DNA of 64,000 nucleotides from Erodium maritimum. Lineage: Eukaryota > Streptophyta > Magnoliopsida > Geraniales > Geraniaceae. The notes beneath the pieces were generated by a model. It ran no database searches, was not told where the DNA came from, and saw nothing but the letters and a program-made list of their open reading frames with translations. The stretch lies in the NCBI GenBank assembly GCA_963921825.1, contig OY997593.1:53242039-53306038 (forward strand). Direction: 5' to 3'. The position numbers and the translations under genes are program-made. Below, piece by piece: positions 1 through 63,740 of this stretch. How positions within the stretch are numbered: the stretch's first letter is position 1; each line of letters starts with the position of its first letter.

Positions 1-318
1 GGTTGGAGATGGTGATAGTAGAGAAGCTTGAAACCTTAAAGGCTGAGAGAGCATATAAGCTCTGGTGAGATTTTGATTATGTAAGAAAATGAAAGCTCAC
101 ATTAGCTTACACATACATTAAGATTAACTTGTTCATACAAATGCAGTTGCAAACACATACATTAATGCACGATTAACAATTTTTGTTTTTGCTTTTACAT
201 GTTTTTTTGCTTCAAAACATATTCAATATGCTACTTGATAGATAGATCTTGAAAAAAGAAAGTTTTTGGCGCAAGAAAAAATTAAATCGGAGTTGAAACG
301 AAGCAGGAAAGATCATAT
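1..318. repeat. AT-rich DNA with a truncated copy of a foldback arm
   Basis: No gene is visible. From about 110 to 318 the sequence repeats, in the same orientation, the segment at about 905-1105 and, inverted, the segment at about 440-660. It is rich in the short motif ACATACATTA. The similarity to the arms of the next element stops abruptly at its left terminus (319), so this is a broken copy of the same family against which the next element lies. Confidence 0.6.
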
Positions 319-1206
319 AGGGGATCTTTCAGGTACGAGCCAATCTTTAGATACGAAATACGAATTAATCCCAACTTTGGAATCGCATATTGCCCAAGGG
401 CTGCGATTTTCGCATGGTTGAATTTTTTTCCACCAAGTTTCTTATTTTGATCTTTCCCGCTTCGTTTCAACTCCGATTTAATTTTTTCTTGCGCCTAAAA
501 CTTTCTTTTTTCAAGATCTATCTATCAAGTAGCATATTGAATATGTTTTGAAGCAAAATAAAAACAAGTACAAGCAAAAACACAAATCGTTAATCGTGCA
601 CTAATGTATGTTTTTGCAACTGCATTTGTATGAATAAGCTCATCTTAATGTATGTTTAAGCTAATCTTAATTTATTAGCTTACATGTACAAAACATACAT
701 ACACATACAAATGAAAATAGTAAGAACATACATTAACTTTAGCGTACACATACAATTGAAAAAACATGCATTAAGGTTGGCTTACACATACAAATGAAAA
801 TGCCAAAAACATACATTTAAAATTGCATAAACATACATTAAGTTCAGCGTACATATATAACTGAAAATTACAAAACATGCAGTTGTAAAAACATATGTAC
901 AAAACATACATTACGGTTAGCTTTATTCATACAAATGCAGTTGCAAATACATACATTAATGCACGGTTAACAATTAGTGTTTTTTTCTTGCTTCAAAACA
1001 TATTCAATATGCTACTTGATAGATAGATCTTGAAAAAAGAAGAATTTTGGCGCAAGAAAAAATTAAATCGGAGTTGAAACGAAACGGGAAAGATCAAAAT
1101 AAGAAACTTGGTGAAAAAAAAATCAGTCATGCGATTTGCAATTCCAAGGCTGGAATTGGTTCGTATTTCGTACAAAATTGGGCAGTTCGTACCTGAATGT
1201 AATCCT
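319..1206. mobile_element. Foldback-type non-autonomous DNA transposon
   Basis: The left end reads AGGGGATCTTTCAGGTACGA, and the reverse complement of the right end reads AGGATTACATTCAGGTACGA. Both resemble the termini of the 252-bp MITEs at 1221 and 6016. Inside, about 345-660 and about 905-1175 are long inverted copies of each other, and the middle is made of degenerate ACATACATTA repeats. TATA-type sequence lies at both ends. No transposase is visible, so the element would need an enzyme supplied in trans. The superfamily is not certain; a TA-type target suggests Tc1/mariner-like or a microsatellite-targeting MITE family. Confidence 0.6.
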
Positions 1207-1220
1207 GTATATATATATAT

Positions 1221-1472
1221 AGGAGGACTATCAAGTACAAACCTATTTTCGGGTCAGAACGTAGAACCAATCTGGGCCATTGATTATCCAAATCGAATGG
1301 CCACCGAAATTCAGGGGGATGGGGGGTGATTGATTACGAAATCAATTACAAGATATGCATTAATTAAAAATATATGCATTAAATCTGGGCCTTTAATTCT
1401 ACGGTCCAAGGACCCAGATTGAAAGTTCTATGTTCTGACGAACTTATAAAGTTTGTACCTGATAGCTATCCT
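1221..1472. mobile_element. MITE inserted in a TA microsatellite (copy 1)
   Basis: A 252-bp element with about 22-bp imperfect terminal inverted repeats (left ends in CTATCAAGTACAAAC; right, reverse-complemented, CTATCAGGTACAAAC; about 18 of 22 positions match). It is bounded on both sides by TATATATA runs, so the target duplication cannot be sized. It has no coding capacity. A second copy at 6016-6268 has nearly the same length and sequence. Confidence 0.85.
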
Positions 1473-4178
1473 ATATATATATATAAGTTTAAGTAGGGGT
1501 ACAATAGCCATTTCACTTACTCAGTTTTAGAAAAACTATATAAAATATAATATAAAGGGAAATTATATTGGGTTTTAGTAAGGGTATACAAGTCATTTCG
1601 CTAGTTTAGTGGATTAAATGAAAAGGAAAAAAGAAAATACGTCAAAGGCGAGGCCAGGGGCCAAAACCACATGGAGGAAAGGGCCAAATCGTAAATTTTC
1701 TCATCTAGTTTGATGTAGCACATAAAAATTCAAATCTATATTGCCTTAGGTGTATTTACCCAGAATATGTTGTTGCTAAACATATGCTAATATTCATTAC
1801 TTTCACAATCAGACCATTTTGAAGAGCTAAATAGTTATATCTTATTAGGTCATCTAAACTTCCTAAGCTCTGGAATATACATAATTTCATAACAACATGC
1901 GTTACTTATTTAAGACTGAAAATATAAATAGTTGTACATTATTAGGTCTAGTATCAACCATTTAATTTACATAAGCTAATTACAAAAAAACGACGTTTAC
2001 TTACAATTCCATTTTTTCATGACATACCACTCAAACTATTCAACCCCAAACCTATAATTGAACGCTCGAGTACATAAACTGCCTACCATAGCTTCCCAAA
2101 TGGGCACTACTCTTTACAGATTACTATAAAAACTAATTCATTTAACTTTAGAAGCTAATTACAATACAATGAATTTCTCTAACATTTTCATGTTGCATGA
2201 TATACTACTCAAATAGACATGCATGAAAAATGAAAATATCAAAAAACCACCAATAAAATATCATATGTAATCTTTTTTTTACTCGAACCAAGCTAAAACA
2301 GTGTTCTAAATAGTTAGAGCCATCTCATTGATCTTGTTTATGAATCTACTTTACCAATCCGGGTTCTCTATCTAAGCATTATTTTCCTGTATTTTAGCTA
2401 TTAGAAGATATAGCACATAAAATTATCATTTTAGTTTGATTTTAGATATACTGATAGACTTCCTCCTTAGTTTGTTTCATAAAATAACATATGCCAAAGA
2501 GTGTGCATTCTCTCCTGAGGGTAAGGGTTCTATGCATTTCCCAACTTCTTCTTCACTATTTCCAGGATGTTGTACAACAGTTGAAGTTAAAAATCAGAGT
2601 CAATTGGTTCATCTAAGGTAAGTGGATAAAACAAACCATCTATCATGCACTTCATATTATTAAATTGGTTCATACATACCTCATATGAAACTTGGCCTTC
2701 CAAAGATTCATCTTTTCTCCCCCCATAACCCACAGTTCCATCTTCAACCAAATTCCTAATGTTTCCGTTATATTATCAAGTTTATCAAAGCTTGTAAAAC
2801 CGGTATTACCATTTTAAACAACAGAAACATTTTTGGACACTCTAGTGACACAATCATAATTCTCTAAAGTTACAAGAACATTATATATAATAACATACAC
2901 TCAATAATTCCAACACAATTTCATTACAAAATCAAAGATCATGGATTCATCAAACAAATTATCTAACCTTTATAAATGTAGAAATGGTAACACTAATTTA
3001 AAGTAAGATCACCAATCCGGCAACTAGTTGGAACACAAAGCACGATCTACCGTTGTCGAGGTTTAGTGAACCTTCAGCGTAGAAAATGTTAGAATTACAT
3101 TAAAAAAAAATAAGCAGAAATCTTGATGAGATGACATCTTGATAACCATCAACAAATAGACTAAAGAGAAGATCAAACATGACATAAGATAGCACATTCG
3201 CAGATTAATTACTGAAAACAATCAACCCCAATGAAAAATACAATATATCAGTATATTACATATGAAAATTCATATATCCTATGAGGTGCATAAACCATGT
3301 TTTATTTTTGGGGGGATATTAGGATCATCGAATAACATTAGGTTTTCTAAGAAAGCAAAGCCATCTTAGAACAAAAACATTTGCATTCTATAATTTTGAC
3401 TGGAAGACACCAATTTTGGCAATGCCTTCTTAATTTCCCAACATTGTCACCTCATAAAAACATAACAGGAGCCGTCGCAAAAATGGAACCTTCTCTTAAA
3501 ATTGGGATTGCACTAGTTCATAGTCAAAATCGAATAAAGTGTAACGGAAAAGTTGTGCAAGTGAAAGTGATGAAGAAAATAAAGTCTTGTAATCACTGAT
3601 ACATACGCATACATGAATTTAAATTTGACTTGCACAACACACGCCTACAATTCACATTGGTTGTTACATATTGCATACCATATCCAATCTCTTTAATCCA
3701 ACCTCAACTCAAGAGCATAAAAAATGAATCCACCATTGATGGGCACAATTTCGAGGCCTCAAAAGAAAAACAAATTCACACGTCAAAAATCATGCTTCCT
3801 CATCTCCTCAAAGTCACAAACGTAAATTAAAAACCAGCATAAGCAGACAACGATTCTCCATTCGAGGTAGTAAAGACGGAATTTAGGGGTTTCTGGATTA
3901 ATTGTTTCGGGACATTGAGGTCTGCTTGAATAAAAAGTAAAATCAAAGGGTTGGAATTTTAAAGAATGAAGAAGAGAAGGAGAATCGACTGGTTCATTGA
4001 TGTTAGCAACATAAACGATTTATCTTAGTATTTTCAAAGACGATAATTGCCACAGATGAACATTGAAACCGAAAGCTAAAGAAGTTGAAATTTTTAGGAG
4101 CTCAAAACCTTAGAATGAGATATAGTGAGAGAAAAAAGTGTTACGCCGATGTTTGTTTTCCTATTATAGTCTTACAGA
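1473..4178. other. AT-rich intergenic DNA without recognisable genes
   Basis: Short open frames here (for example 2436-2621 and 3381-3599) have no recognisable motif and the composition of random AT-rich DNA. A TATATATA run closes the preceding MITE. No RNA gene or repeat array was seen. The last 300 bases are interrupted by the Copia insertion at 4179. Confidence 0.5.
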
Positions 4179-45802: not shown

Positions 45803-46020
45803 TCCTGACCCATATCCGACCCGAGTCCGAAACCCGGACCCGAATCCGACCCGGTCCAAAGCTCAGACCCGGACTTGACCCGAGCCCGACCCAGACCCTG
45901 ACCCGAACCCGAGTCCGGACCCGAACCCAGATCCAGTCCAAGGTCGAGGCCCAAACCAGGTCCAGGCCCGAGGACCAAACTAAGTCCAGGCCCGTCTGAA
46001 CTCGTGTCAGGCCCAGGCCC
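45803..46020. repeat. Degenerate CCCGACC minisatellite in the solo LTR
   Basis: Repeated CCCGAC/CCCGGA/CCCGAA blocks, giving a Gly/Leu/Ser-rich frame on the minus strand that is a by-product of the repeat. Confidence 0.7.
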
Positions 46021-46925
46021 GTCTAGGTCTAGTTCTGGCCAGAGACGTGAACGACGGCAAGCTGGTTTAGTGTTCCGTCGGGGTTGAGGGCGGCGATAGA
46101 GGCGGAGCTAGGGGTTCACGATGGTGGTAGAGGCGTCAGGAGGCTCGGGAGAGGCGAGGGAAGGTTGCTGTTGCGGTTCTCCGCCAAAATCTGACAGCGA
46201 GGGGCTTTGCCGGTCATGGGAGCCGTAGAACTGGAGCTCGGGAAGCTCGGCGTGCTTCTCCGGCCGAGCTCAGCTCAAAACAAGCCCGTACGCTCGCAAT
46301 TCTCGAAGAGGGATCGACGGAGGTGGTGAAATAAGCCAAGAAGGTGGCTCACCGTCGCAGATTTTGCCTGTTGCAGGCGCGGCGAAGCTCGGGGTTGCGG
46401 CGGCGCTGGTTCGATGCGAGTTGAGGAGGAAGAAGGGAGAGAATGAGAGGGGTTTTGATGGTTTCTGGCACGGGGGTGTGGAGCTGGTGTTCTGGCGAGG
46501 TTCTGATGTCGCGGGGGTTCGGTTTGAGGCCGGAGAAACGTCGCCGGTGTTCTAGTTCGAGAGAGAGTGGCGAGAGGAAGAAGAGATGCCTCGGTTTCTG
46601 TGCGCGAAATGAGAAGATGAAGCATTGCGAGGTAGGGTTAGCGGCGCGTGGGTCTTGGGCTGGCACAGGTTGGGCCTAGTCCTCGCATGGTTGGGCCGGC
46701 TCATTGTCTGGCCCGAGCTGATTCGACCCAAAGCCTGGGTCTGGGCTGGCCTAGCCCTAACCCAGTAGGGTTTGAAATCGATCCAAAATAAACTCGTTCC
46801 CAACTGATTCGACCCTAAGCCTGGGTCTCATTTTTTTTTGAAATCGATCCAAAATAAACTCGTTCCCAACTCTCGATGTTTCAACAATAATTTACATTAA
46901 TAAATTCCACGGTCTTTACAGTAGG

Positions 46926-47585
46926 GTTTGGGGCGGACCTCCTAGGGAAGCCTATCGCGGTTGGTTGGTTGGTGTCTCAGGTAGGGAATCGGGGACGCGT
47001 GTTAGGTATCGGGTGCATTGTGATGCCGGTTCCCCTTCCTTGAGACAACCTCGCCTTAGGTATCGGGTCCAATGTCAACGTGCTTGGGACAGCTCCCTCA
47101 AATTCCCGTTTAGTACAACGCCGTCTTCGCAATCCCCGGGTGAGAACTGCCTCATCCAATCCTGAGAGGACGGATGGAACTCCCACTGGCTCACACGGGG
47201 ATGAGGCCCTCTTGTCGAAGTATGCGCAACAGACCCCTCCGATATGGCAGAAAGTGGCTTTGAGGATACCAGAGCGGGGGCGACGACCTAACCGGCCTTC
47301 GTGCAAATTCATCCTCCTTGGCATCCAACGCGTCCCCCCTCGAGACCAGAGACGGAGGGCCACCGATCCCACAATCAGTCCCGAGAACACCCCAACCATA
47401 GGGTATCCAGACCTTAACCTGCCTCCGAGCCCAGCCTCGCCGAGCAAACATGGACGAAGCCATAAGCGTCACTGAACAAGCACTGGGACCGGACCCGTAG
47501 CGTCGTGGTCGTGGAGTACGCCGAGCAAACCGTCACATCCTGAGCAATCCCCCCACCCAGGTTTCGAGGGGGAACAAACCTCGGA
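46926..47585 (+). other. Sequence upstream of the first tandem LTR copy
   Basis: 46926-47217 is unique within the window. From about 47218 to 47585 it is homologous to the 378-bp inter-LTR spacer of the array but differs at a number of positions. It ends GGTTTCGAGGGGGAAC and then CCTCGGA before TGTAAG, the purine-rich layout expected at the 3' internal end of a Gypsy element. It may be the end of an older, truncated copy or simple flank. No convincing protein is encoded. Confidence 0.5.
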
Positions 47586-50500
47586 TGTAAGAACCCCTGG
47601 TCGATCCCGGTCGAACCGGTGATTTCGGGCGAAATTTGACTTTGGCCAGAAAAGTCATCTGATAACTGCGGGGGTAATTCGGGTCCTTTCGGGACCCAAA
47701 AAGCTTATCCATCGTTACGGTTAGCTTAGTTGGATCGTTTCCTTTCAAATGACTGTCCTTGTGAAAAAGTCAACTTTCGGTCAAACGGAGACTAATTATC
47801 GACTAAACTTAATTAAATTGGAGATGCTGGAAATAATTAAGGACAAGATGGTCCCCACATGGACACTTATCCATGTTATCTTGGAAGAGAAGAAAATGGA
47901 CTAAAAAGACCCTTTTGACCCTCCTTAGTTAGTCTTGAGTGGATAAGAGCTAAGGGGCACTTTAGACTTTACAAATATTAGGTTTTAAAGCATTTTGAGA
48001 GCAAAATTCAGTCATTTCCTTGAGCTAGCCAAAATTTAGAGAGAGAAAGAAGGAGAGGAGAAACCATGGTAGCTTGAAGAAGAAGAAATGGAGAAAGAAG
48101 GAAGCTTTGGTCAAGTTCTTCATCAAATCTTCTCAAAAACCTCTAAATCCTCTTCATCTATCAATTTCCAAGGTAAGTAAACTCTAAATTTCCACTTTCA
48201 ATCATTTTGGAGTTATGGTTTTCCTTAGAAAATGCATGAACTAGTTAGGTTTTTGTGTATTTGTTGTTAGATGATCGTTTAAGAGAAGAAGGAGATTGAT
48301 TTATGTAGAAATCAATTGTTTTTGTTTTTTTTGGGTTGGAAATCTCTTGGGTAATTGTTGTTTTGATGAATTCCACTTTGGGTAGTGAGGTATTGAAGTT
48401 ATGGGACTGTTTCGGAGGTTTTGGGTGGTTAAAAATGGAGTTTTTGGTGTTGATTTCGTGGAAAGGAGGCTGGAGGAAGAGGAAGGACGAAACAGGTCTG
48501 GGCCGTCACGGATCCGTGACGGGAGACGTCACGGCTCCGTGAGAGAGACAGTGACGGCACACGTCACAGATCTGTGACGTCATCCGTGACGAGGAGCTTC
48601 ACGGCTCCGTGACTGGAACTGTGGCAGACCAGTTTTGGCCCTTTTGAGTCCTTTTTGGGTGTTTTTCGTTTAATTCGAAAGGTTATCTTGAACCGATTGT
48701 TTGGGGGATTTTAACTTGGGTGTTTTCCTCTTAAACCACCCTTTATTATTCTTTAATTCTAGTGTTAATTTGTGTTCTTAGATCTTATTCTCGAGCTCGG
48801 GGGAGGAGACTACTCGCCGGTTGTGTGATTAAGCTTTGGAAAGCACTTGAGGTAGGGAAGAGTAGTAAATTTCCGCTTTTAATTAAGAAATGCTAATAGT
48901 ATGCATATAGGACGATAATAACCGGAAGAGTCTTAGTATGCATATAGGATGTGATTCACTAGAATAAACGCTTTCAATTATGGGAATTGTCGTGCTGTAG
49001 AATGGCCATGTCGAGCCTTAGGATTGCGTGTTGGTTGTGTTTGATTATGGTTATCCGTCCTTAATTGTCGGTGTATAGTATGTCCTTTGGTTAGTCTAAG
49101 AATCTTATTAAACTATATGAATTATGATGATTGTGATACGAATGGTTGCTCAGTGACATGATTGGTTGAGTGAATGTGTTGAATGTGATATGATTGTACC
49201 TTGTGATACGATCGGGTGAATGATAGACCGATGTGACGTAAAGTGGCGGAGTATGCCGCAGCAGACCCCTTCGATATGGCGGAAAGTGGCTCTGAGGATA
49301 CCGGAGCAGGGGCGACGTCCTAACCGGCCTTCGTGCAGATTCATCCTCCTTGGCATCCAGCGCGTCCCCCCTCGAGACCAGAGACGGAGGGCCGCCGATC
49401 CCACAATCAGGCCCGAGAACACCCTAACCATAGGGTATCCAGACCTTAACCTGCCTCTGAGCCCAGCCTCGCCAAGCAAACATAGACGAAGCCATAAGCG
49501 TCACGGAACAAGCACTGGGACCGGACCCGTAGCGTCGTGGTCGTGGAGTATGTCGAGCACACCGTCACATCCCGAGAAATCCCCCCACCCAGGTTTCGAG
49601 GGGGAACAAACCTCGGATGTAAGAACCCCTGGTCGATCCCGGTCGAACCGGTGATTTCGGGCGAAAATTGACTTTGGCCAGAAAAGTCAACCGATGACTC
49701 CGAGAGTCATTCGGGACCTTTCGGGACCCAAAAAGCTTAGTCGTTATTACGGTTAGCTTAGTTGGGTCGTTTCCTTTCAAATGACTGTCCTTGTGAAAAA
49801 GTCAACTTTCGGTCAAACGGAGACTAATTATCGACTAAACTTAATTAAATTGGAGATGCTGGAAATAATTAAGGACAAGATGGTCCCCACATGGACACTT
49901 ATCCATGTTATCTTGGAAGAGAAGAAAATGGACTAAAAAGACCCTTTTGACCCTCCTTAGTTAGTCTTGAGTGGATAAGAGCTAAGGGGCACTTTAGACT
50001 TTACAAATATTAGGTTTTAAAGCATTTTGAGAGCAAAATTCAGTCATTTCCTTGAGCTAGCCAAAATTTAGAGAGAGAAAGAAGGAGAGGAGAAACCATG
50101 GTAGCTTGAAGAAGAAGAAATGGAGAAAGAAGGAAGCTTTGGTCAAGTTCTTCATCAAATCTTCTCAAAAACCTCTAAATCCTCTTCATCTATCAATTTC
50201 CAAGGTAAGTAAACTCTAAATTTCCACTTTCAATCATTTTGGAGTTATGGTTTTCCTTAGAAAATGCATGAACTAGTTAGGTTTTTGTGTATTTGTTGTT
50301 AGATGATCGTTTAAGAGAAGAAGGAGATTGATTTATGTAGAAATCAATTGTTTTTGTTTTTTTTGGGTTGGAAATCTCTTGGGTAATTGTTGTTTTGATG
50401 AATTCCACTTTGGGTAGTGAGGTATTGAAGTTATGGGACTGTTTCGGAGGTTTTGGGTGGTTAAAAATGGAGTTTTTGGTGTTGATTTCGTGGAAAGGAG

Positions 50501-53500
50501 GCTGGAGGAAGAGGAAGGACGAAACAGGTCTGGGCCGTCACGGATCCGTGACGGGAGACGTCACGGCTCCGTGAGAGAGACAGTGACGGCACACGTCACA
50601 GATCTGTGACGTCATCCGTGACGAGGAGCTTCACGGCTCCGTGACTGGAACTGTGGCAGACCAGTTTTGGCCCTTTTGAGTCCTTTTTGGGTGTTTTTCG
50701 TTTAATTCGAAAGGTTATCTTGAACCGATTGTTTGGGGGATTTTAACTTGGGTGTTTTCCTCTTAAACCACCCTTTATTATTCTTTAATTCTAGTGTTAA
50801 TTTGTGTTCTTAGATCTTATTCTCGAGCTCGGGGGAGGAGACTACTCGCCGGTTGTGTGATTAAGCTTTGGAAAGCACTTGAGGTAGGGAAGAGTAGTAA
50901 ATTTCCGCTTTTAATTAAGAAATGCTAATAGTATGCATATAGGACGATAATAACCGGAAGAGTCTTAGTATGCATATAGGATGTGATTCACTAGAATAAA
51001 CGCTTTCAATTATGGGAATTGTCGTGCTGTAGAATGGCCATGTCGAGCCTTAGGATTGCGTGTTGGTTGTGTTTGATTATGGTTATCCGTCCTTAATTGT
51101 CGGTGTATAGTATGTCCTTTGGTTAGTCTAAGAATCTTATTAAACTATATGAATTATGATGATTGTGATACGAATGGTTGCTCAGTGACATGATTGGTTG
51201 AGTGAATGTGTTGAATGTGATATGATTGTACCTTGTGATACGATCGGGTGAATGATAGACCGATGTGACGTAAAGTGGCGGAGTATGCCGCAGCAGACCC
51301 CTTCGATATGGCGGAAAGTGGCTCTGAGGATACCGGAGCAGGGGCGACGTCCTAACCGGCCTTCGTGCAGATTCATCCTCCTTGGCATCCAGCGCGTCCC
51401 CCCTCGAGACCAGAGACGGAGGGCCGCCGATCCCACAATCAGGCCCGAGAACACCCTAACCATAGGGTATCCAGACCTTAACCTGCCTCTGAGCCCAGCC
51501 TCGCCAAGCAAACATAGACGAAGCCATAAGCGTCACGGAACAAGCACTGGGACCGGACCCGTAGCGTCGTGGTCGTGGAGTATGTCGAGCACACCGTCAC
51601 ATCCCGAGAAATCCCCCCACCCAGGTTTCGAGGGGGAACAAACCTCGGATGTAAGAACCCCTGGTCGATCCCGGTCGAACCGGTGATTTCGGGCGAAAAT
51701 TGACTTTGGCCAGAAAAGTCAACCGATGACTCCGAGAGTCATTCGGGACCTTTCGGGACCCAAAAAGCTTAGTCGTTATTACGGTTAGCTTAGTTGGGTC
51801 GTTTCCTTTCAAATGACTGTCCTTGTGAAAAAGTCAACTTTCGGTCAAACGGAGACTAATTATCGACTAAACTTAATTAAATTGGAGATGCTGGAAATAA
51901 TTAAGGACAAGATGGTCCCCACATGGACACTTATCCATGTTATCTTGGAAGAGAAGAAAATGGACTAAAAAGACCCTTTTGACCCTCCTTAGTTAGTCTT
52001 GAGTGGATAAGAGCTAAGGGGCACTTTAGACTTTACAAATATTAGGTTTTAAAGCATTTTGAGAGCAAAATTCAGTCATTTCCTTGAGCTAGCCAAAATT
52101 TAGAGAGAGAAAGAAGGAGAGGAGAAACCATGGTAGCTTGAAGAAGAAGAAATGGAGAAAGAAGGAAGCTTTGGTCAAGTTCTTCATCAAATCTTCTCAA
52201 AAACCTCTAAATCCTCTTCATCTATCAATTTCCAAGGTAAGTAAACTCTAAATTTCCACTTTCAATCATTTTGGAGTTATGGTTTTCCTTAGAAAATGCA
52301 TGAACTAGTTAGGTTTTTGTGTATTTGTTGTTAGATGATCGTTTAAGAGAAGAAGGAGATTGATTTATGTAGAAATCAATTGTTTTTGTTTTTTTTGGGT
52401 TGGAAATCTCTTGGGTAATTGTTGTTTTGATGAATTCCACTTTGGGTAGTGAGGTATTGAAGTTATGGGACTGTTTCGGAGGTTTTGGGTGGTTAAAAAT
52501 GGAGTTTTTGGTGTTGATTTCGTGGAAAGGAGGCTGGAGGAAGAGGAAGGACGAAACAGGTCTGGGCCGTCACGGATCCGTGACGGGAGACGTCACGGCT
52601 CCGTGAGAGAGACAGTGACGGCACACGTCACAGATCTGTGACGTCATCCGTGACGAGGAGCTTCACGGCTCCGTGACTGGAACTGTGGCAGACCAGTTTT
52701 GGCCCTTTTGAGTCCTTTTTGGGTGTTTTTCGTTTAATTCGAAAGGTTATCTTGAACCGATTGTTTGGGGGATTTTAACTTGGGTGTTTTCCTCTTAAAC
52801 CACCCTTTATTATTCTTTAATTCTAGTGTTAATTTGTGTTCTTAGATCTTATTCTCGAGCTCGGGGGAGGAGACTACTCGCCGGTTGTGTGATTAAGCTT
52901 TGGAAAGCACTTGAGGTAGGGAAGAGTAGTAAATTTCCGCTTTTAATTAAGAAATGCTAATAGTATGCATATAGGACGATAATAACCGGAAGAGTCTTAG
53001 TATGCATATAGGATGTGATTCACTAGAATAAACGCTTTCAATTATGGGAATTGTCGTGCTGTAGAATGGCCATGTCGAGCCTTAGGATTGCGTGTTGGTT
53101 GTGTTTGATTATGGTTATCCGTCCTTAATTGTCGGTGTATAGTATGTCCTTTGGTTAGTCTAAGAATCTTATTAAACTATATGAATTATGATGATTGTGA
53201 TACGAATGGTTGCTCAGTGACATGATTGGTTGAGTGAATGTGTTGAATGTGATATGATTGTACCTTGTGATACGATCGGGTGAATGATAGACCGATGTGA
53301 CGTAAAGTGGCGGAGTATGCCGCAGCAGACCCCTTCGATATGGCGGAAAGTGGCTCTGAGGATACCGGAGCAGGGGCGACGTCCTAACCGGCCTTCGTGC
53401 AGATTCATCCTCCTTGGCATCCAGCGCGTCCCCCCTCGAGACCAGAGACGGAGGGCCGCCGATCCCACAATCAGGCCCGAGAACACCCTAACCATAGGGT

Positions 53501-56500
53501 ATCCAGACCTTAACCTGCCTCTGAGCCCAGCCTCGCCAAGCAAACATAGACGAAGCCATAAGCGTCACGGAACAAGCACTGGGACCGGACCCGTAGCGTC
53601 GTGGTCGTGGAGTATGTCGAGCACACCGTCACATCCCGAGAAATCCCCCCACCCAGGTTTCGAGGGGGAACAAACCTCGGATGTAAGAACCCCTGGTCGA
53701 TCCCGGTCGAACCGGTGATTTCGGGCGAAAATTGACTTTGGCCAGAAAAGTCAACCGATGACTCCGAGAGTCATTCGGGACCTTTCGGGACCCAAAAAGC
53801 TTAGTCGTTATTACGGTTAGCTTAGTTGGGTCGTTTCCTTTCAAATGACTGTCCTTGTGAAAAAGTCAACTTTCGGTCAAACGGAGACTAATTATCGACT
53901 AAACTTAATTAAATTGGAGATGCTGGAAATAATTAAGGACAAGATGGTCCCCACATGGACACTTATCCATGTTATCTTGGAAGAGAAGAAAATGGACTAA
54001 AAAGACCCTTTTGACCCTCCTTAGTTAGTCTTGAGTGGATAAGAGCTAAGGGGCACTTTAGACTTTACAAATATTAGGTTTTAAAGCATTTTGAGAGCAA
54101 AATTCAGTCATTTCCTTGAGCTAGCCAAAATTTAGAGAGAGAAAGAAGGAGAGGAGAAACCATGGTAGCTTGAAGAAGAAGAAATGGAGAAAGAAGGAAG
54201 CTTTGGTCAAGTTCTTCATCAAATCTTCTCAAAAACCTCTAAATCCTCTTCATCTATCAATTTCCAAGGTAAGTAAACTCTAAATTTCCACTTTCAATCA
54301 TTTTGGAGTTATGGTTTTCCTTAGAAAATGCATGAACTAGTTAGGTTTTTGTGTATTTGTTGTTAGATGATCGTTTAAGAGAAGAAGGAGATTGATTTAT
54401 GTAGAAATCAATTGTTTTTGTTTTTTTTGGGTTGGAAATCTCTTGGGTAATTGTTGTTTTGATGAATTCCACTTTGGGTAGTGAGGTATTGAAGTTATGG
54501 GACTGTTTCGGAGGTTTTGGGTGGTTAAAAATGGAGTTTTTGGTGTTGATTTCGTGGAAAGGAGGCTGGAGGAAGAGGAAGGACGAAACAGGTCTGGGCC
54601 GTCACGGATCCGTGACGGGAGACGTCACGGCTCCGTGAGAGAGACAGTGACGGCACACGTCACAGATCTGTGACGTCATCCGTGACGAGGAGCTTCACGG
54701 CTCCGTGACTGGAACTGTGGCAGACCAGTTTTGGCCCTTTTGAGTCCTTTTTGGGTGTTTTTCGTTTAATTCGAAAGGTTATCTTGAACCGATTGTTTGG
54801 GGGATTTTAACTTGGGTGTTTTCCTCTTAAACCACCCTTTATTATTCTTTAATTCTAGTGTTAATTTGTGTTCTTAGATCTTATTCTCGAGCTCGGGGGA
54901 GGAGACTACTCGCCGGTTGTGTGATTAAGCTTTGGAAAGCACTTGAGGTAGGGAAGAGTAGTAAATTTCCGCTTTTAATTAAGAAATGCTAATAGTATGC
55001 ATATAGGACGATAATAACCGGAAGAGTCTTAGTATGCATATAGGATGTGATTCACTAGAATAAACGCTTTCAATTATGGGAATTGTCGTGCTGTAGAATG
55101 ACCATGTCGAGCCTTAGGATTGCGTGTTGGTTGTGTTTGATTATGGTTATCCGTCCTTAATTGTCGGTGTATAGTATGTCCTTTGGTTAGTCTAAGAATC
55201 TTATTAAACTATATGAATTATGATGATTGTGATACGAATGGTTGCTCAGTGACATGATTGGTTGAGTGAATGTGTTGAATGTGATATGATTGTACCTTGT
55301 GATACGATCGGGTGAATGATAGACCGATGTGACGTAAAGTGGCGGAGTATGCCGCAGCAGACCCCTTCGATATGGCGGAAAGTGGCTCTGAGGATACCGG
55401 AGCAGGGGCGACGTCCTAACCGGCCTTCGTGCAGATTCATCCTCCTTGGCATCCAGCGCGTCCCCCCTCGAGACCAGAGACGGAGGGCCGCCGATCCCAC
55501 AATCAGGCCCGAGAACACCCTAACCATAGGGTATCCAGACCTTAACCTGCCTCTGAGCCCAGCCTCGCCAAGCAAACATAGACGAAGCCATAAGCGTCAC
55601 GGAACAAGCACTGGGACCGGACCCGTAGCGTCGTGGTCGTGGAGTATGTCGAGCACACCGTCACATCCCGAGAAATCCCCCCACCCAGGTTTCGAGGGGG
55701 AACAAACCTCGGATGTAAGAACCCCTGGTCGATCCCGGTCGAACCGGTGATTTCGGGCGAAAATTGACTTTGGCCAGAAAAGTCAACCGATGACTCCGAG
55801 AGTCATTCGGGACCTTTCGGGACCCAAAAAGCTTAGTCGTTATTACGGTTAGCTTAGTTGGGTCGTTTCCTTTCAAATGACTGTCCTTGTGAAAAAGTCA
55901 ACTTTCGGTCAAACGGAGACTAATTATCGACTAAACTTAATTAAATTGGAGATGCTGGAAATAATTAAGGACAAGATGGTCCCCACATGGACACTTATCC
56001 ATGTTATCTTGGAAGAGAAGAAAATGGACTAAAAAGACCCTTTTGACCCTCCTTAGTTAGTCTTGAGTGGATAAGAGCTAAGGGGCACTTTAGACTTTAC
56101 AAATATTAGGTTTTAAAGCATTTTGAGAGCAAAATTCAGTCATTTCCTTGAGCTAGCCAAAATTTAGAGAGAGAAAGAAGGAGAGGAGAAACCATGGTAG
56201 CTTGAAGAAGAAGAAATGGAGAAAGAAGGAAGCTTTGGTCAAGTTCTTCATCAAATCTTCTCAAAAACCTCTAAATCCTCTTCATCTATCAATTTCCAAG
56301 GTAAGTAAACTCTAAATTTCCACTTTCAATCATTTTGGAGTTATGGTTTTCCTTAGAAAATGCATGAACTAGTTAGGTTTTTGTGTATTTGTTGTTAGAT
56401 GATCGTTTAAGAGAAGAAGGAGATTGATTTATGTAGAAATCAATTGTTTTTGTTTTTTTTGGGTTGGAAATCTCTTGGGTAATTGTTGTTTTGATGAATT

Positions 56501-57745
56501 CCACTTTGGGTAGTGAGGTATTGAAGTTATGGGACTGTTTCGGAGGTTTTGGGTGGTTAAAAATGGAGTTTTTGGTGTTGATTTCGTGGAAAGGAGGCTG
56601 GAGGAAGAGGAAGGACGAAACAGGTCTGGGCCGTCACGGATCCGTGACGGGAGACGTCACGGCTCCGTGAGAGAGACAGTGACGGCACACGTCACAGATC
56701 TGTGACGTCATCCGTGACGAGGAGCTTCACGGCTCCGTGACTGGAACTGTGGCAGACCAGTTTTGGCCCTTTTGAGTCCTTTTTGGGTGTTTTTCGTTTA
56801 ATTCGAAAGGTTATCTTGAACCGATTGTTTGGGGGATTTTAACTTGGGTGTTTTCCTCTTAAACCACCCTTTATTATTCTTTAATTCTAGTGTTAATTTG
56901 TGTTCTTAGATCTTATTCTCGAGCTCGGGGGAGGAGACTACTCGCCGGTTGTGTGATTAAGCTTTGGAAAGCACTTGAGGTAGGGAAGAGTAGTAAATTT
57001 CCGCTTTTAATTAAGAAATGCTAATAGTATGCATATAGGACGATAATAACCGGAAGAGTCTTAGTATGCATATAGGATGTGATTCACTAGAATAAACGCT
57101 TTCAATTATGGGAATTGTCGTGCTGTAGAATGACCATGTCGAGCCTTAGGATTGCGTGTTGGTTGTGTTTGATTATGGTTATCCGTCCTTAATTGTCGGT
57201 GTATAGTATGTCCTTTGGTTAGTCTAAGAATCTTATTAAACTATATGAATTATGATGATTGTGATACGAATGGTTGCTCAGTGACATGATTGGTTGAGTG
57301 AATGTGTTGAATGTGATATGATTGTACCTTGTGATACGATCGGGTGAATGATAGACCGATGTGACGTAAAGTGGCGGAGTATGCCGCAGCAGACCCCTTC
57401 GATATGGCGGAAAGTGGCTCTGAGGATACCGGAGCAGGGGCGACGTCCTAACCGGCCTTCGTGCAGATTCATCCTCCTTGGCATCCAGCGCGTCCCCCCT
57501 CGAGACCAGAGACGGAGGGCCGCCGATCCCACAATCAGGCCCGAGAACACCCTAACCATAGGGTATCCAGACCTTAACCTGCCTCTGAGCCCAGCCTCGC
57601 CAAGCAAACATAGACGAAGCCATAAGCGTCACGGAACAAGCACTGGGACCGGACCCGTAGCGTCGTGGTCGTGGAGTATGTCGAGCACACCGTCACATCC
57701 CGAGAAATCCCCCCACCCAGGTTTCGAGGGGGAACAAACCTCGGA
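47586..57745 (+). repeat. Tandem array of a 2032-bp LTR-derived unit, 5 copies
   Basis: Each unit has the first 1654 bp of a Gypsy LTR (TGTAAGAACCCC to ACCGATGTGACGT) followed by a 378-bp spacer (AAAGTGGCGGAG to CCTCGGA). LTR parts: 47586-49239, 49618-51271, 51650-53303, 53682-55335, 55714-57367; the sixth LTR (57746) leads into the Gypsy element. From 47734 onward the copies look identical except for a G-to-A change at 55101 and 57133. The first copy differs before 47734. Short frames that recur every 2032 bp (68, 71, 109 and 144 codons) are identical only because the DNA is, and show no motif. Confidence 0.95.
48505..48613. repeat. Cluster of CACGG/CCGTG palindromes in each LTR unit
   Basis: The perfect 16-bp palindrome GTCACGGATCCGTGAC is followed by GTCACGGCTCCGTGA, GTCACAGATCTGTGAC and CACGGCTCCGTGAC. 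The cluster recurs at 50537, 52569, 54601 and 56633 and is absent from the sixth LTR because of a deletion. It can form hairpins on either strand. Confidence 0.9.
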
Positions 57746-59563
57746 TGTAAGAACCCCTGGTCGATCCCGGTCGAACCGGTGATTTCGGGCGAAAATTGAC
57801 TTTGGCCAGAAAAGTCAACCGATGACTCCGAGAGTCATTCGGGACCTTTCGGGACCCAAAAAGCTTAGTCGTTATTACGGTTAGCTTAGTTGGGTCGTTT
57901 CCTTTCAAATGACTGTCCTTGTGAAAAAGTCAACTTTCGGTCAAACGGAGACTAATTATCGACTAAACTTAATTAAATTGGAGATGCTGGAAATAATTAA
58001 GGACAAGATGGTCCCCACATGGACACTTATCCATGTTATCTTGGAAGAGAAGAAAATGGACTAAAAAGACCCTTTTGACCCTCCTTAGTTAGTCTTGAGT
58101 GGATAAGAGCTAAGGGGCACTTTAGACTTTACAAATATTAGGTTTTAAAGCATTTTGAGAGCAAAATTCAGTCATTTCCTTGAGCTAGCCAAAATTTAGA
58201 GAGAGAAAGAAGGAGAGGAGAAACCATGGTAGCTTGAAGAAGAAGAAGAAATGGAGAAAGAAGGAAGCTTTGGTCAAGTTCTTCATCAAATCTTCTCAAA
58301 AACCTCTAAATCCTCTTCATCTATCAATTTCCAAGGTAAGTAAACTCTAAATTTCCACTTTCAATCATTTTGGAGTTATGGTTTTCCTTAGAAAATGCAT
58401 GAACTAGTTAGGTTTTTGTGTATTTGTTGTTAGATGATCGTTTAAGAGAAGAAGGAGATTGATTTATGTAGAAATCAATTATGATATGAATGGTTGCTCA
58501 GTGACATGATTGGTTGAGTGAATGTGTTAAATGTGATATGATTGTACCATGTGATATGATCGGGTGAATGATAGACCGATGTGACGTGTTCGGTAAGTTG
58601 TGTCAGTAAGCTTGGTTGGTAAGATGAGTTCGTTGTAATGTGTTTTGTTTGGTATTGTGTGTTATTATTGTTGCCCCGAGGTTGTTTCCGGGAAGATGTC
58701 CGACCGAGGGGTGTGCCGATCCGATATGTTTATTATGTTGTTTCACCCCGATGCTACATGTTCCGGGAAGACACCTAGGCCGATGGGTATTCTGGTATGG
58801 TGTATTGTTGTCTCATCCCGATGCTACGTGTTCCGGGAAGACACCTAGGTCGATGGGTATTCCGGTATGGTGTATTGTTGTCTCATCCTGATGCTACGTG
58901 TTCCGGGAAGACTTGTTTCACCCCGATGCTGTGTGTTCCGGGAAGACATCTAGACCAAGGAGTATTCCGGTATGATGTATTTGTTTCACCCCAATGATGT
59001 GAGTTTCGGAAAGATATCTAGGCCGATGTGTGTTCCGGTACGATATGTTGAGTTTGTGTGTGGATCGGAGTTTTGTTGTTTAATTATCTATATTTCGATA
59101 CTCGTGTGTTCTTTACTTTTTTTTCTATTGGTGAATAAGTTATTTTCCTGTTGATCTCTAATTGTGTTGTCTTTTGGTAATTGTACTAATCGAGAACTTT
59201 GGTGACGGAGCGAGAGCTCTTTTTCCCTTTACTACCTTTTCCTACTGAGCGTAAGCTCACCCCCTCGGTTTTTACTGTTTTACAGGTTTCGTTGGTGAGT
59301 AGGCTTAGAGGTCGTCTTAGGGCTCGGGAGCTCGTTGAGGGTCCGGGTGGTTACATGTAGTAGAGACGTACTTTCGATTTTCTTACTAAAATATGCTTCC
59401 TTACTTGTTTGGAACTGAGCGTTTGACTCATGTTTATCGAAGTTGTTTATTTTGGAACTAAATTCGGAGTTTGATTTCGTTTAAATTTACTTTAATTATT
59501 GTTTTATTATTATTCCTAGTTCACGTCTCGAGTCCGGTCAAAACCGGATTTGGGGCGTGACAA
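57746..59563 (+). repeat. 5' LTR of the Gypsy element, with an internal deletion
   Basis: It runs from TGTAAGAACCCC to GGGGCGTGACA. Up to 58480 it equals the array units apart from three extra bases (one more GAA) near 58242. Then about 816 bp present in the units (56446-57261) are missing, and the remainder carries a few differences from the units and continues past their breakpoint (GACGTGTTCGG at 58583). The undeleted LTR would be about 2.6 kb. Confidence 0.88.
58736..59046 (+). repeat. Tandem sub-repeats of about 70 bp in the 5' LTR
   Basis: Five units, one shortened, built on TCACCCCGATGCTACGTG, TTCCGGGAAGACACCTAGG and GTATTCCGGTATGGTGTAT. They start near 58736, 58806, 58874, 58914 and 58981. 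Confidence 0.9.
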
Positions 59564-59566
59564 TTT

Positions 59567-59578
59567 GGTATCAGAGCC
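59567..59578 (+). other. Primer-binding site of the Gypsy element
   Basis: TGGTATCAGAGC three bases after the LTR end; tRNA-iMet type. Confidence 0.92.
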
Positions 59579-60526
59579 TGGTTTTTCAAAACTTCGGATC
59601 GTACGTCAATTAGGTGGGTAGAGTCAGGATGTTAAGGTTCTAGTGTTCGGTTACGCAAGTCGGAAACGTCATACGCGTAGACCCGAGATGACGAGAGTCT
59701 CGGATGGCGAAGTGCCTTGTTTGAGTCCTGCCTTAAATTGTGTTATGTCGTGTGTCTTGGTTGAACTGTTATGCGGATCGGGTGAGATCGAGGTCGGTTT
59801 AGCGAGCGATGCTCGGTGCTGTTGATGATGTGTTTGTTAAGTGATCATTTATTAAGTTGCCGCCCTGGTCGGCCGTTGAGTGATTGGTTAAATCGAAATG
59901 TTGACTTGATCGGGTAGTAATCGAGGGATTACCGAGACCTGAGGTGTATGTCTGCGATGATTTGCTGTGTGTTGTGAAATGTGAATCGAATGTCCAGCGT
60001 AAGCGGATGGTTAGTGAAATTTTCAAACGGGTCATGCCCAAATTTCTGCAAAACTGAAGTGTTTGTACTATCACGGGTTGACTCAGGTGTGCCACTGTAG
60101 TCGAACGTGATAAGGGGATGTCAAGTGGTTACAACAAGATTTGGGGATGCCTGAATCGGGTTGTAACGATACGATATCGACATGAATGTTGGATTAGAAA
60201 GAACAAGTGTTGAGAACCTTGAAACTAAGTTGATGTTGATACTAGTGGAGTTGATGAGTAATATGAACTGTGTGACCCTGAGTGGGATGTTGAACTATAT
60301 GATCGACTTGTGTGACGTACAAGTGTACGGGTTTCCCTTTGGTTTGATTGATTTCGTGAGACGCACAAGTGTGCGGACTTCTGTGATTATATGAGATTAA
60401 CTATAACTATACTAAAACTAAGTATCTTGTTGGTCCGAGTATGACCTTTGAGAAACATGTGTGAACGTTAGTGTTTTAAGCGAGCCGCTTTATTCGAAAT
60501 TAAGAAACTGAACATGTGCGTTATCC
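59579..60526 (+). other. Untranslated leader of the Gypsy element
   Basis: About 0.95 kb between primer site and gag, without a long frame; G/T-rich, as usual for this group. Confidence 0.6.
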
Positions 60527-62260
60527 GTGCAATGGGTATACGACATGACACCTGCCTACGTACCGCGAGGCACTAAGAGTCGCCCAGCTAGGGGCCAGGG
60601 TGCTTCCTCTGAGGGGCACGAGAGAGATGAGGCTGGACCGTCAGGGCTACCGCCTAGAGGCCCTTCGGTCGTAGAGTCGACCCCGGCGACCGCTCTGGAG
60701 GAGCTGGTTCGCACGGTTCTCGCGGTGATCAGCGCCCAGAGGGAGATTGCAACACCGGCACCAGAGACCGTCCTAGCTGCCACTGCAGCTGGTGCTGTTG
60801 TGAGGCCGAGTCAGCCCAATAGTTACACTGCCCAGGCGCTGAGGGACTTCCTTAAGCTGGGAACTCATATCTTTTCCGGGGAGCCAGATCCCGAGGCAGC
60901 CAAGAGATGGCTAGGACAGATCACCCGTAACTTGGATATGTCGGGGATCGTAGACGATCACATGCGGGTATCCTTTACAGCATTCCAGCTGAGGGATGAG
61001 GCATATTTTTGGTGGCAGCGCAAGCAGCGCAGGGTTGGAGACGACTTTCAGTTATTCAGAAGGCTGTTCCTCGAGCAGTATTTCCCGAGATCAGCCCGTG
61101 AGGACAAACATCAGCAGTTCCTGGAGCTGTGCCAGAGAGGGATGTCCGTATCAGAGTATGAGGCGAGGTTTACCTCCCTAGCTCGCTTTGCAACGGAGAT
61201 GGTGTCGACTGAGGCACTCCGATGTAGACGATTCGAGAGGGGACTCCTTCCGTCGATCGTAGACCGAGTCATTGCCTTTAGGCCTGAGGTGTATATTGAG
61301 CTAGTGGACTAGGCACTAGTAGTGGAGTGACACTTCCGAGAGACCGCCAGGGCTCAGGAGAGCAGGCCAAGACCGAGTAATTTTCTGAGGCCGTCCGAGG
61401 GCCGCGATCCGAGGAGGCAGAGGACCTCGGGATCCTTCCAGCCACATGCCCAATCTGGTGGGATGCGACGGGTCGGAGCAGTAGCATCCATTGTACCTGC
61501 CCCGTTAGCGTAGTTTTGTCCTGTGTGTAGGCAGTTGGGACATCTTGGCCGATATTTCCCGATGAATGGTGGACCTACAGACCGCGCGACGGATCGTCCG
61601 ACTAGGGTCGAGGAGAGGCCGCGTGCCGTTGAGAGGACATGCTACCACTGCGGCCAACTGCGACACATCTCTTTTGAGTGTCCTGACCGGGTTAGAGGAG
61701 CGCCATCGCCGAGACCTCAGCAGGCGCAGCCCCGCCAAGCACCCTCTATCCGATCGCGTCAGACACAGACTCCGAGAGCCCCACGCCAGGCGGCGGGAGC
61801 ACAAGTACAGAGACACCAGCCGAGGGTTCAACAACAGATGACCCTTCCACCACCCCCGAGAGGGGGACCCAAGGCACAGCAAAGCCGGGTGTATGCTGTC
61901 ACTGACTCCCGAGCGGAGGGACGCCACTCTAATCATGAGACCAATAAGGGTACGTGCTTGCTTTACAATTCATGGGCGTCTTTCTTACTTGATACTGGGG
62001 CTTCACATTCTTTCATCTCTTCTACTTTTGCTTATTCTTTGGGGTTAATGGTAGAGACGTTGAGTCGACCCTTATGTTTTGATACCTGGGTTACGGGACA
62101 TGTGCTCTTAAGTACCATATGTCGTGCATGTGAGATTAGAGTGGCTGATTGCCCTTTTGTTGGTGATTTACTTGTTTTGGATATGACGGCATTTGACGTG
62201 ATCTTGGGGATGGACTGGCTCGCGAGGTATCGGGCGTCGATCGATTGCTATCGACGATAG
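60527..62260 (+). pseudogene. Gypsy gag and protease, interrupted by stops
   Basis: Gag (60527-61312) has the retrotransposon gag domain: LRDFLKLGTHIFSGEPDPEA, YFWWQRKQRR, LFLEQYFPRSAREDKHQQF and GMSVSEYEARFTSLARFATE. In-frame stops follow at 61310 (TAG), 61328 (TGA) and 61511 (TAG). The same frame then gives the zinc knuckle CYHCGQLRHISFEC, a Pro/Gln/Arg-rich linker, and the aspartic protease with FLLDTGASHSFISSTFA and DVILGMDWLARY. A further TAG at 62258 separates it from RT. No frameshift occurs in this stretch, so only point changes broke it. Confidence 0.9.
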
Positions 62261-63740
62261 GTGACAATGGTCTCGGGTGACACGATCGTCACTGTCAGTA
62301 GGAGCAGAGTTCTCCAGTCAGCATTGACCTCGGGAGATGAGGTGGCGACCGAGCGGAGCAGAGAGCTGCCGCGTGTAGTGTGTGAGTTCCCGGAGGTCTT
62401 TCTGGGGGAGCTGTCGGGATTACCGCCTATGCGCGAGCTGGAGTTCAGGATTGACTTGATACCGGGGACGGCGCATATATCCATGGCCCCGTACCTGTTT
62501 GCACCAGCCGAGTTGGTCGAGCTGAACCGACAACTCGAGGGGCTTCGGGAGAAGGGATTTATCCGTCCGAGTGCTTCACCGTGGGGAGCACCCACCCTCT
62601 TCGTGAAGAATAAGAAGGGTGGAGCATTGAGGATGTGCATCGACTACCGGAAGTTGAATCGGGTCACGGTGAAGAACCGTTACCCGATGCCGAGGATCGA
62701 TGACTTGTTCGATCATCTGAGAGGAGCGAAGTGCTTCTCGAAGATTGATCTACGATAAGGGTACTATCAGTTGAGAGTTCGGGAGGAGGATGTGGCGAAG
62801 ACCGCATTTCGGACTCGGTACGGACACTACGAGTTCCCGGTGATGCCGTTTGGGCTGACGAATGCGCCTGCAGCGTTCATGGACCTGATGAACAGTATCT
62901 TCCGACCGTATCTTGACCAGTTCGTCGGGGTGTTCGTAGAAGACATTCTGATTTTATTCCCTGAGTGAGGAGGCGCATGAGGATCACCTGAGGACAGTTT
63001 TGACATTGTTGCGCACTCACCAGTTGTACGGAAACCTGGAGAAGTGCGAGTTTTGGCTCACCAAGGTGAAGTTCCTCGGGCATGTTGTGTCCCGAGAGGG
63101 TATACTGGTTGATCCGGCGAAGATCGACGCGGTCTCGAAGTGGGCACGGCCCAAGAGTGTCTTTGAGATCCGCAGCTTCCTAGGCTTGGCAGGATACTAT
63201 CGACGGTTCGTCCTGGACTTCTCACGTCTGGTCGTGCCGATGACTGCCCTGACACGCAAGGGAGCCGAGTTTCTTTGGAACGATGAGTTGGAGCACTCCT
63301 TTACCGAGCTGAAGGCTCGTTTGAGTACCGCTCCCGTGTTGATCGTGCCGGAGCGAGGGATCGGTTATGATCTGTATTGTGATGCGTCCGGTGAGGGACT
63401 GGGATGTGTATTGATGCAGTCCGGGAAGGTAGTTGCCTATGGCTCCAGACAGTTGAAGACACATGAGTTCAACTACCCTACCCATGACTTAGAGTTGGCA
63501 GTAGTCGTCTTCGCGCTGAAGAGCTGGCGACACTACTTGTATGGAGAGCGGTTCCGGGTGTTCTCGGATCACAAGAGTCTTAAGTACATCTTCTCCCAGC
63601 GCGACCTGAACATGCGCTAGAGGCGGTGGATGGAGTTACTTGAGGAGTACGACTTCGAGCTACTCTACCATCCAGGCAAGGCGAACGTTGTCGCCGATGC
63701 TCTGAGTAGGAAGTCGACTCACTGCTTTGCCGATATATCA
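62261..63740 (+). pseudogene. Gypsy reverse transcriptase and RNase H, interrupted
   Basis: The frame continues with RT motifs [40 protein letters not shown] and FSKIDLR, a TAA at 62756, then [20 protein letters not shown]. The active-site segment reads VFVEDILI where the family has FIDDIL, so the first Asp is Glu. One extra base near 62953 shifts the frame. 63000-63620 then has the RT thumb and tether ([24 protein letters not shown]) and RNase H ([49 protein letters not shown]). After a TAG at 63618 it ends [17 protein letters not shown]. Inactive. Confidence 0.92.

Follow-up and report, generated by a model that had tools for sequence, protein, structure and literature searches.

A tandem array joining part of a Ty3/Gypsy long terminal repeat to host flanking DNA in Erodium maritimum

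How does a tandem repeat come to consist partly of a retrotransposon and partly of the DNA beside it? This question is raised by a 64,000-nucleotide stretch of the Erodium maritimum genome (contig OY997593.1, C6:53242039-53306038; hereafter the window), in which a 2032-bp unit, composed of 378 bp of spacer followed by positions 1 to 1654 of a Ty3/Gypsy long terminal repeat (LTR), is arranged head to tail at 47208-58480. An initial annotation had described five near-identical copies, and this was confirmed by self-comparison between 44 and 62 kb, where identity at lag 2032 was 0.62, far above chance, against 0.25-0.28 at the 14 other lags scanned (2025-2039). LTR starts were found at six positions (47586, 49618, 51650, 53682, 55714 and 57746) and abnormal junctions at five (after 49239, 51271, 53303, 55335 and 57367). 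Five units (U1 to U5) thus carry LTR positions 1-1654, and a partial sixth copy (U6) continues into the genuine remainder of the LTR. The annotated unit lengths of 378 and 1654 bp were exact, as was the GTTCGG continuation of the last LTR (at 58588). The locus is therefore a retroelement-derived tandem repeat, made of head-to-tail copies of one unit that is part retroelement. We consider it likely that it arose in three stages: insertion of the element, formation of an end-joined junction, and later homology-driven copying of about 5.3 units. The coordinates of all features are collected in Table 1.

We examined the origin of the 378-bp spacer by searching the genome (763 Mb in 40 contigs). 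Of 291 candidate matches 40 were scored; six were the array copies and the 34 others, the best of which was 85% identical, all began at query base 5-10. Twenty loci were fetched because they match the flank, and 18 of them were used in an alignment. The match began at unit base 5-10 in all 20 and ended exactly at base 378, where the LTR starts, in 18 (earlier in L035 and L036); none of the 20 continued into this LTR. The sequence to the left of the array (46923-47207) was present in every fetched copy except L033, its match starting at 46920-46926 in 16 of the 20. Moreover, the sequence that follows the 3' LTR, about 33 kb downstream (in L016), was matched by 17 of the 20 copies (all but L034, L035 and L036), from its first or second base in 16 of these and from base 29 in L026. 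The flank before the 5' LTR and the sequence after the 3' LTR are thus two parts of one repeat, indicating that the Gypsy element inserted within it. The target-site duplication (TSD) TCGGA both precedes the 5' LTR and follows the 3' LTR (L016:6503-6507), where the order is GTGACA, TCGGA, host repeat. The insertion point lies between CCTCGGA and ACCCTAGACC of the host repeat, with a 5-bp TSD.

The spacer therefore belongs to the host: it is a piece of the older dispersed repeat in which the element sits. What had been annotated simply as sequence upstream of the LTR does adjoin it, and can now be specified as host flank from this repeat. Since the flank is host DNA, the unit straddles the 5' integration boundary and is thus beyond the reach of reverse transcription. 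The dispersed repeat had no Rfam match in L025:2000-4300 up to an E value of 0.1, and among its reading frames (ten of 19 listed, in L025 and L040) there was a single Pfam match, below cut-off (E 0.43). We also considered the spacer or the whole unit as a gene and rejected this; the 144-amino-acid frame that crosses the junction had no Pfam match, and Rfam gave none at gathering score in 46000-60000.

The join between the LTR and the next flank was annotated as something other than a normal LTR boundary, and indeed it is an abnormal join that contains the 7-nucleotide filler AAAGTGG. The filler fits neither the host repeat nor the LTR, and the host-repeat copies mostly agree with the unit from CGGAGTATG onward (18 aligned copies, read by eye). 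A search of the 763 Mb for the junction sequence, allowing up to 2 mismatches, returned 5 matches, all in the array, and a reversed control pattern returned 0. Since the identical filler occurs at five junctions and nowhere else, the junction was formed once, in agreement with the initial view that it arose a single time and was then amplified. Together with the next C, the filler makes the 8-mer AAAGTGGC, which occurs a second time at 49283, 43 bp downstream on the same strand. At that position AAAGTGGC is found in U1 and in the unit, and in none of the 18 aligned relatives; the variant that the filler matches is thus private to this locus. Of 20,000 8-mers drawn from other parts of the unit, 0.3% recurred within 100 bp on one strand or the other; for random 8-mers the figure was 0.6%. 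A filler templated in this way would fit error-prone end joining, as in polymerase-theta-type repair.

The units themselves are almost uniform. The homogeneous core (47735-58480; 10,746 bp or 5.29 units) contains one substitution and one 3-bp indel. At lag 2032, a single mismatch (53069/55101) was found from 47734 to 56215; the remainder of the last partial copy fits lag 2035, which corresponds to an indel of 3 bp within a run of GAA at about 58249. The annotated claim of one base difference after 47734 thus holds for the substitution and omitted the indel. The substituted site reads G in U1-U3 and A in U4-U5 (GGGAA). We took A as derived because L018-L021, as well as this insertion's own 3' LTR (L016), have G. 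Its presence in the adjacent U4 and U5 requires at least one duplication or conversion after the mutation, unless A arose twice, and for this reason we favor at least two amplification steps.

Both edges of the array are 5-10% diverged from the units. On the left, similarity to the unit starts at about 47213, with a flank identity there of 94%; 23 of 372 positions differ between U1 and the unit flank (Kimura two-parameter distance [K2P], 0.065), as do 15 of the 148 positions compared in LTR 1-149 (K2P 0.110); to the right of 47734, U1 and U2 are identical. When the flank changes were polarized with the other copies as outgroup, 11 were assigned to the left copy and 10 to the unit, with 2 unclear, a split that matches two copies ageing equally. 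On the right, U6 follows the unit to about LTR position 732 and then jumps to about 1544, so that about 0.8 kb (approximately 733-1544) is missing. This break shows a 4-bp microhomology; if LTR breakpoint pairs are drawn at random, about 2% have one of at least 4 bp. Over the following 107 bp, identity to the unit is 95.3% (K2P 0.049). Diverged edges around a near-identical core are the expected leftover of recombination within a repeated stretch. We applied a rice rate of 1.3e-8 substitutions per site and year, which may not be that of the host. With it, the divergence between the 5' and 3' LTRs (K2P 0.042-0.043 over 974 and 431 bp) gives an age of about 1.6 million years, and the one substitution in 10,746 bp gives the core an age of about 7,000 years (upper 95% limit, about 40,000). 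Ongoing conversion could be another way of keeping the core young.

We infer the order of events and the pathways from these features, as follows. An LTR retrotransposon would have inserted into the older dispersed repeat, producing the TSD. A later end-joining accident may have joined LTR position 1654 back to the host flank, at a point 378 bp before the insertion, and left at the join a short filler templated by neighboring sequence; the 2032-bp unit of flank and LTR would thereby have been made once. Much later, homologous recombination acting on the repeated unit would have copied about 5.3 units. The copied block would have been resolved in register at its left end, which lies within the LTR immediately past position 149; at its right end, microhomology joining would have closed it out of register, and about 0.8 kb was lost. 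Two templates fit: a sister chromatid, with unequal exchange in an old array of two copies, or an extrachromosomal circle of 2032 bp. The array is thus best explained as a by-product of repair and recombination.

Several observations weigh against this sequence of events. The divergence of the flank (0.065) and of LTR 1-149 (0.110) exceeds that of the LTR pair, which conflicts with a duplication that must be younger than the insertion; at the rice rate the flank would be 2.5 million years old and, like LTR 1-149, apparently older than the insertion, which is impossible. By Fisher's test, the excess over the LTR pair reached significance in LTR 1-149 (p = 0.003), but neither in the flank (p = 0.09) nor at the right edge (p = 0.80). 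The changes in LTR 1-149 also lean toward the left copy (10, against 4 on the unit and 1 unclear). Quicker decay of methylated CpG sites might explain the excess, to judge from CpG density, which is 79-81 per kb in the flank and LTR 1-149 versus 29-50 in the rest of the LTR. In addition, positions 1-1223 of the 3' LTR, its 5' part, were not found beside the element nested there (see below), and the number of copies was read from the assembly.

Table 1. Positions in the window of the array, its parts and the adjoining parent element
Feature	Position	Strand	Remarks
Left part of older dispersed repeat (host DNA), single copy left of array	46923..47207	+	matched in 19/20 copies
U1 flank, original host context	47208..47585	+	6% diverged from unit flank
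U1 LTR positions 1-149	47586..47734	+	~10% diverged from units; exchange point just right of 47734
Homogeneous array block	47735..58480	+	one substitution, one 3-bp indel (U6)
Filler AAAGTGG (7 nt) at unit junction	49240..49246	+	also at 51272, 53304, 55336, 57368
U2, reference 2032-bp unit	49240..51271	+	host flank 49240-49617 (ends in TSD TCGGA), LTR 1-1654 at 49618-51271
U3	51272..53303	+
U4	53304..55335	+	earliest unit with derived A (at 55101)
U5	55336..57367	+	derived A at 57133
U6, partial	57368..58480	+	flank and LTR to ~position 732
Right edge, AATT microhomology	58477..58480	+	LTR 729-732 and 1535-1538; extra 9-bp loss just right
Remainder of true 5' LTR	58481..59562	+	first 107 bp 95.3% identical to unit, then GTTCGG to ...GTGACA
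Primer-binding site TGGTATCAGAGCC, tRNA-like	59566..59578	+	read by eye
gag, protease, reverse transcriptase and RNase H open frames, separate pieces of a broken element	60527..63620	+	Pfam Retrotrans_gag, RVP_2, RVT_1 (below cut-off), RT_RNaseH, RT_RNaseH_2

We weighed this origin against other explanations, of which one-step rolling-circle copying, though rather unlikely, fared best. Here, the flank and LTR 1-1654 would have been circularized by end joining, the junction being the closure of the circle; a broken LTR end would then have copied the circle repeatedly and been rejoined by microhomology. A single event would thus yield near-identical units in an array that ends in register on the left and out of register on the right, and the diverged edges would reflect a circle made from a diverged allele. 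However, the derived A in the adjacent U4 and U5 demands a later duplication or conversion even so, and the allele or template would have to be about 6% diverged, whereas the assembly holds no second version of the junction.

It is also conceivable, if improbable, that the host dispersed repeat rather than the retrotransposon is the amplification-prone partner and has repeatedly seeded near-identical arrays. We scanned 33 fetched stretches (L014-L046) for tandem segments at lags of 60-4000, and the window at lags of 60-2600. Near-identical tandem segments were found only in the window, in L029, in L034 and, as one short segment, in L018; the extra repeat copies L042-L046 (4 kb each, versus 6.3-8.1 kb for the others) had none. 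Arrays of their own were thus carried by 2 of the 25 fetched host-repeat copies. L029:996-2752 (C5:72253000+) contains five head-to-tail 351-bp units within the host repeat, mismatched at 5 of the 1406 positions compared, and L034:3073-5701 (C1:59436600+) contains 775-bp and 960-bp duplications of the host repeat, with 2 mismatches each in 771 and 881 positions. We regard these two arrays as a lead only toward host-repeat amplification.

That the assembler multiplied a smaller number of real units is very unlikely. The near-identity of the units and a copy number taken from the assembly would agree with such an expansion, but the phased substitution (GGGAA), the 3-bp indel in one copy and the two distinct diverged edges, all consistently placed, argue against it; moreover, an array of about 11 kb is within the length of long reads, if such reads were used. 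An origin by retrotransposition, through template-switch LTR multimers or inserted one-LTR circles, has the LTR sequence in the units in its favor. In practice it is excluded, because every unit includes 378 bp of host DNA, which are absent from the element RNA and end in the TSD. Finally, we rejected the spacer as the 3' end of the internal region, in an array of LTR-sharing elements with collapsed interiors, as scarcely credible: a purine-rich stretch does stand directly before the LTR, but none of the 20 spacer copies enters the LTR, 17 continue as host repeat, and the LTR copy L018, 94% alike, has no adjoining spacer.

The LTR of the parent element begins with TGTAAG and ends with GTGACA, so that TG...CA ends stand next to the 5-bp TSD. 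Its annotated attribution to Gypsy is supported by downstream Pfam matches to gag, protease and RNase H above cut-off, with reverse transcriptase below it (E 6e-5), and by a primer-binding site, TGGTATCAGAGCC, which presumably pairs with a tRNA. The 3' LTR is present from position 1224 onward only; it was the best non-array match of the unit's last LTR piece (98% identity; 40 of 2533 candidates scored). A reverse-oriented Gypsy relative is nested in the element (L014:3817, L016:5062) and abuts the 3' LTR at position 1224. Its flanking 5-mers are unequal (ACACT and CTACT) and, together with the lost start of the 3' LTR, look as after recombination between two insertions. Another LTR-like stretch (L014:740-3502), of a related family and about 81% alike at its start, has element sequence on either side and is probably a solo LTR. 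Within the LTR, we observed about 4.7 copies of a palindrome-rich 23-bp motif (window 48504-48613, and correspondingly in each of the next four units), and in the LTR tail tandem repeats of about 70 bp (window 58736-59044).

Two broader suggestions of the initial annotation fared less well. The idea that the unit repeats the LTR promoter found no support: a strict TATA scan was negative in LTR 1-1654 and in the LTR tail, which neither shows nor excludes a promoter, and no clear core promoter emerged when conservation of the unit LTR was profiled against seven other LTRs. One AATAAA was found at LTR position 1378. The description as a satellite in the making is likewise unproven, as a single array was found. 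Satellite DNA forms long arrays or many copies, usually in several places, and here the junction occurs five times in one place, although longer arrays may have been collapsed in the assembly. A piece from the middle of the LTR had five identical copies in the array and at most 92% identity elsewhere among the 44 matches listed (40 of 4089 candidates scored), no two other full-length matches among them lying within 6 kb. The search with the last LTR piece likewise gave no other array by spacing among its listed matches.

Reconstructions of how satellite DNA arose usually come long after the event, and at this one locus the first steps are still legible: a parent insertion with its TSD, a single end-joined junction with filler, diverged edges that speak for an old founding and a near-identical core that speaks for recent amplification. 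Since the unit spans host DNA and LTR, seeding appears to need repair and recombination only, and not the retrotransposon cycle. On a small scale, the locus thus illustrates how a tandem repeat can begin from the ordinary debris of mobile elements. Retroelement-derived tandem repeats are already well known; this one is distinct in having, as the second half of its unit, host DNA from beyond the element. A limited search of the open-licence literature found no description of an LTR and host-flank array exactly like this one. The Sobo satellite of potato also has a large LTR-related unit, in far larger arrays.

The closest comparison is with CRM1TR and CRM4TR of maize, tandem repeats derived from LTR and untranslated region (UTR) segments of centromeric retrotransposons (PMC3648361). 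The authors favor gene conversion, while leaving room for unequal exchange or rolling circles (PMC3648361). As in those repeats, part of an LTR is joined abnormally to neighboring sequence and the copies are homogenized locally (PMC3648361). In contrast, the second half of the maize units is the element's own UTR, and at our locus it is the host flank; CRM1TR has 187 full-length monomers at two loci, against five complete units in one place, and the maize loci are (peri)centromeric (PMC3648361). The Ogre-derived satellites of Lathyrus share a retroelement source and short arrays as satellite seeds, but they arise within the element, from its subrepeats, and move along with it, unlike our unit, which retrotransposition cannot copy (PMC7004042). 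Unequal exchange between repeated segments is also central to the models of McGurk and Barbash for satellites from transposable elements, as outlined in a review; their substrate is a double insertion or tandem elements sharing an LTR, and here it is one insertion with its flank (PMC12628747). In rye, tandem repeats are co-amplified with adjacent transposable elements, so that element and neighboring DNA are involved jointly, and illegitimate recombination has been proposed; those form large subtelomeric blocks, in contrast to the one small array described here (PMC4857426).

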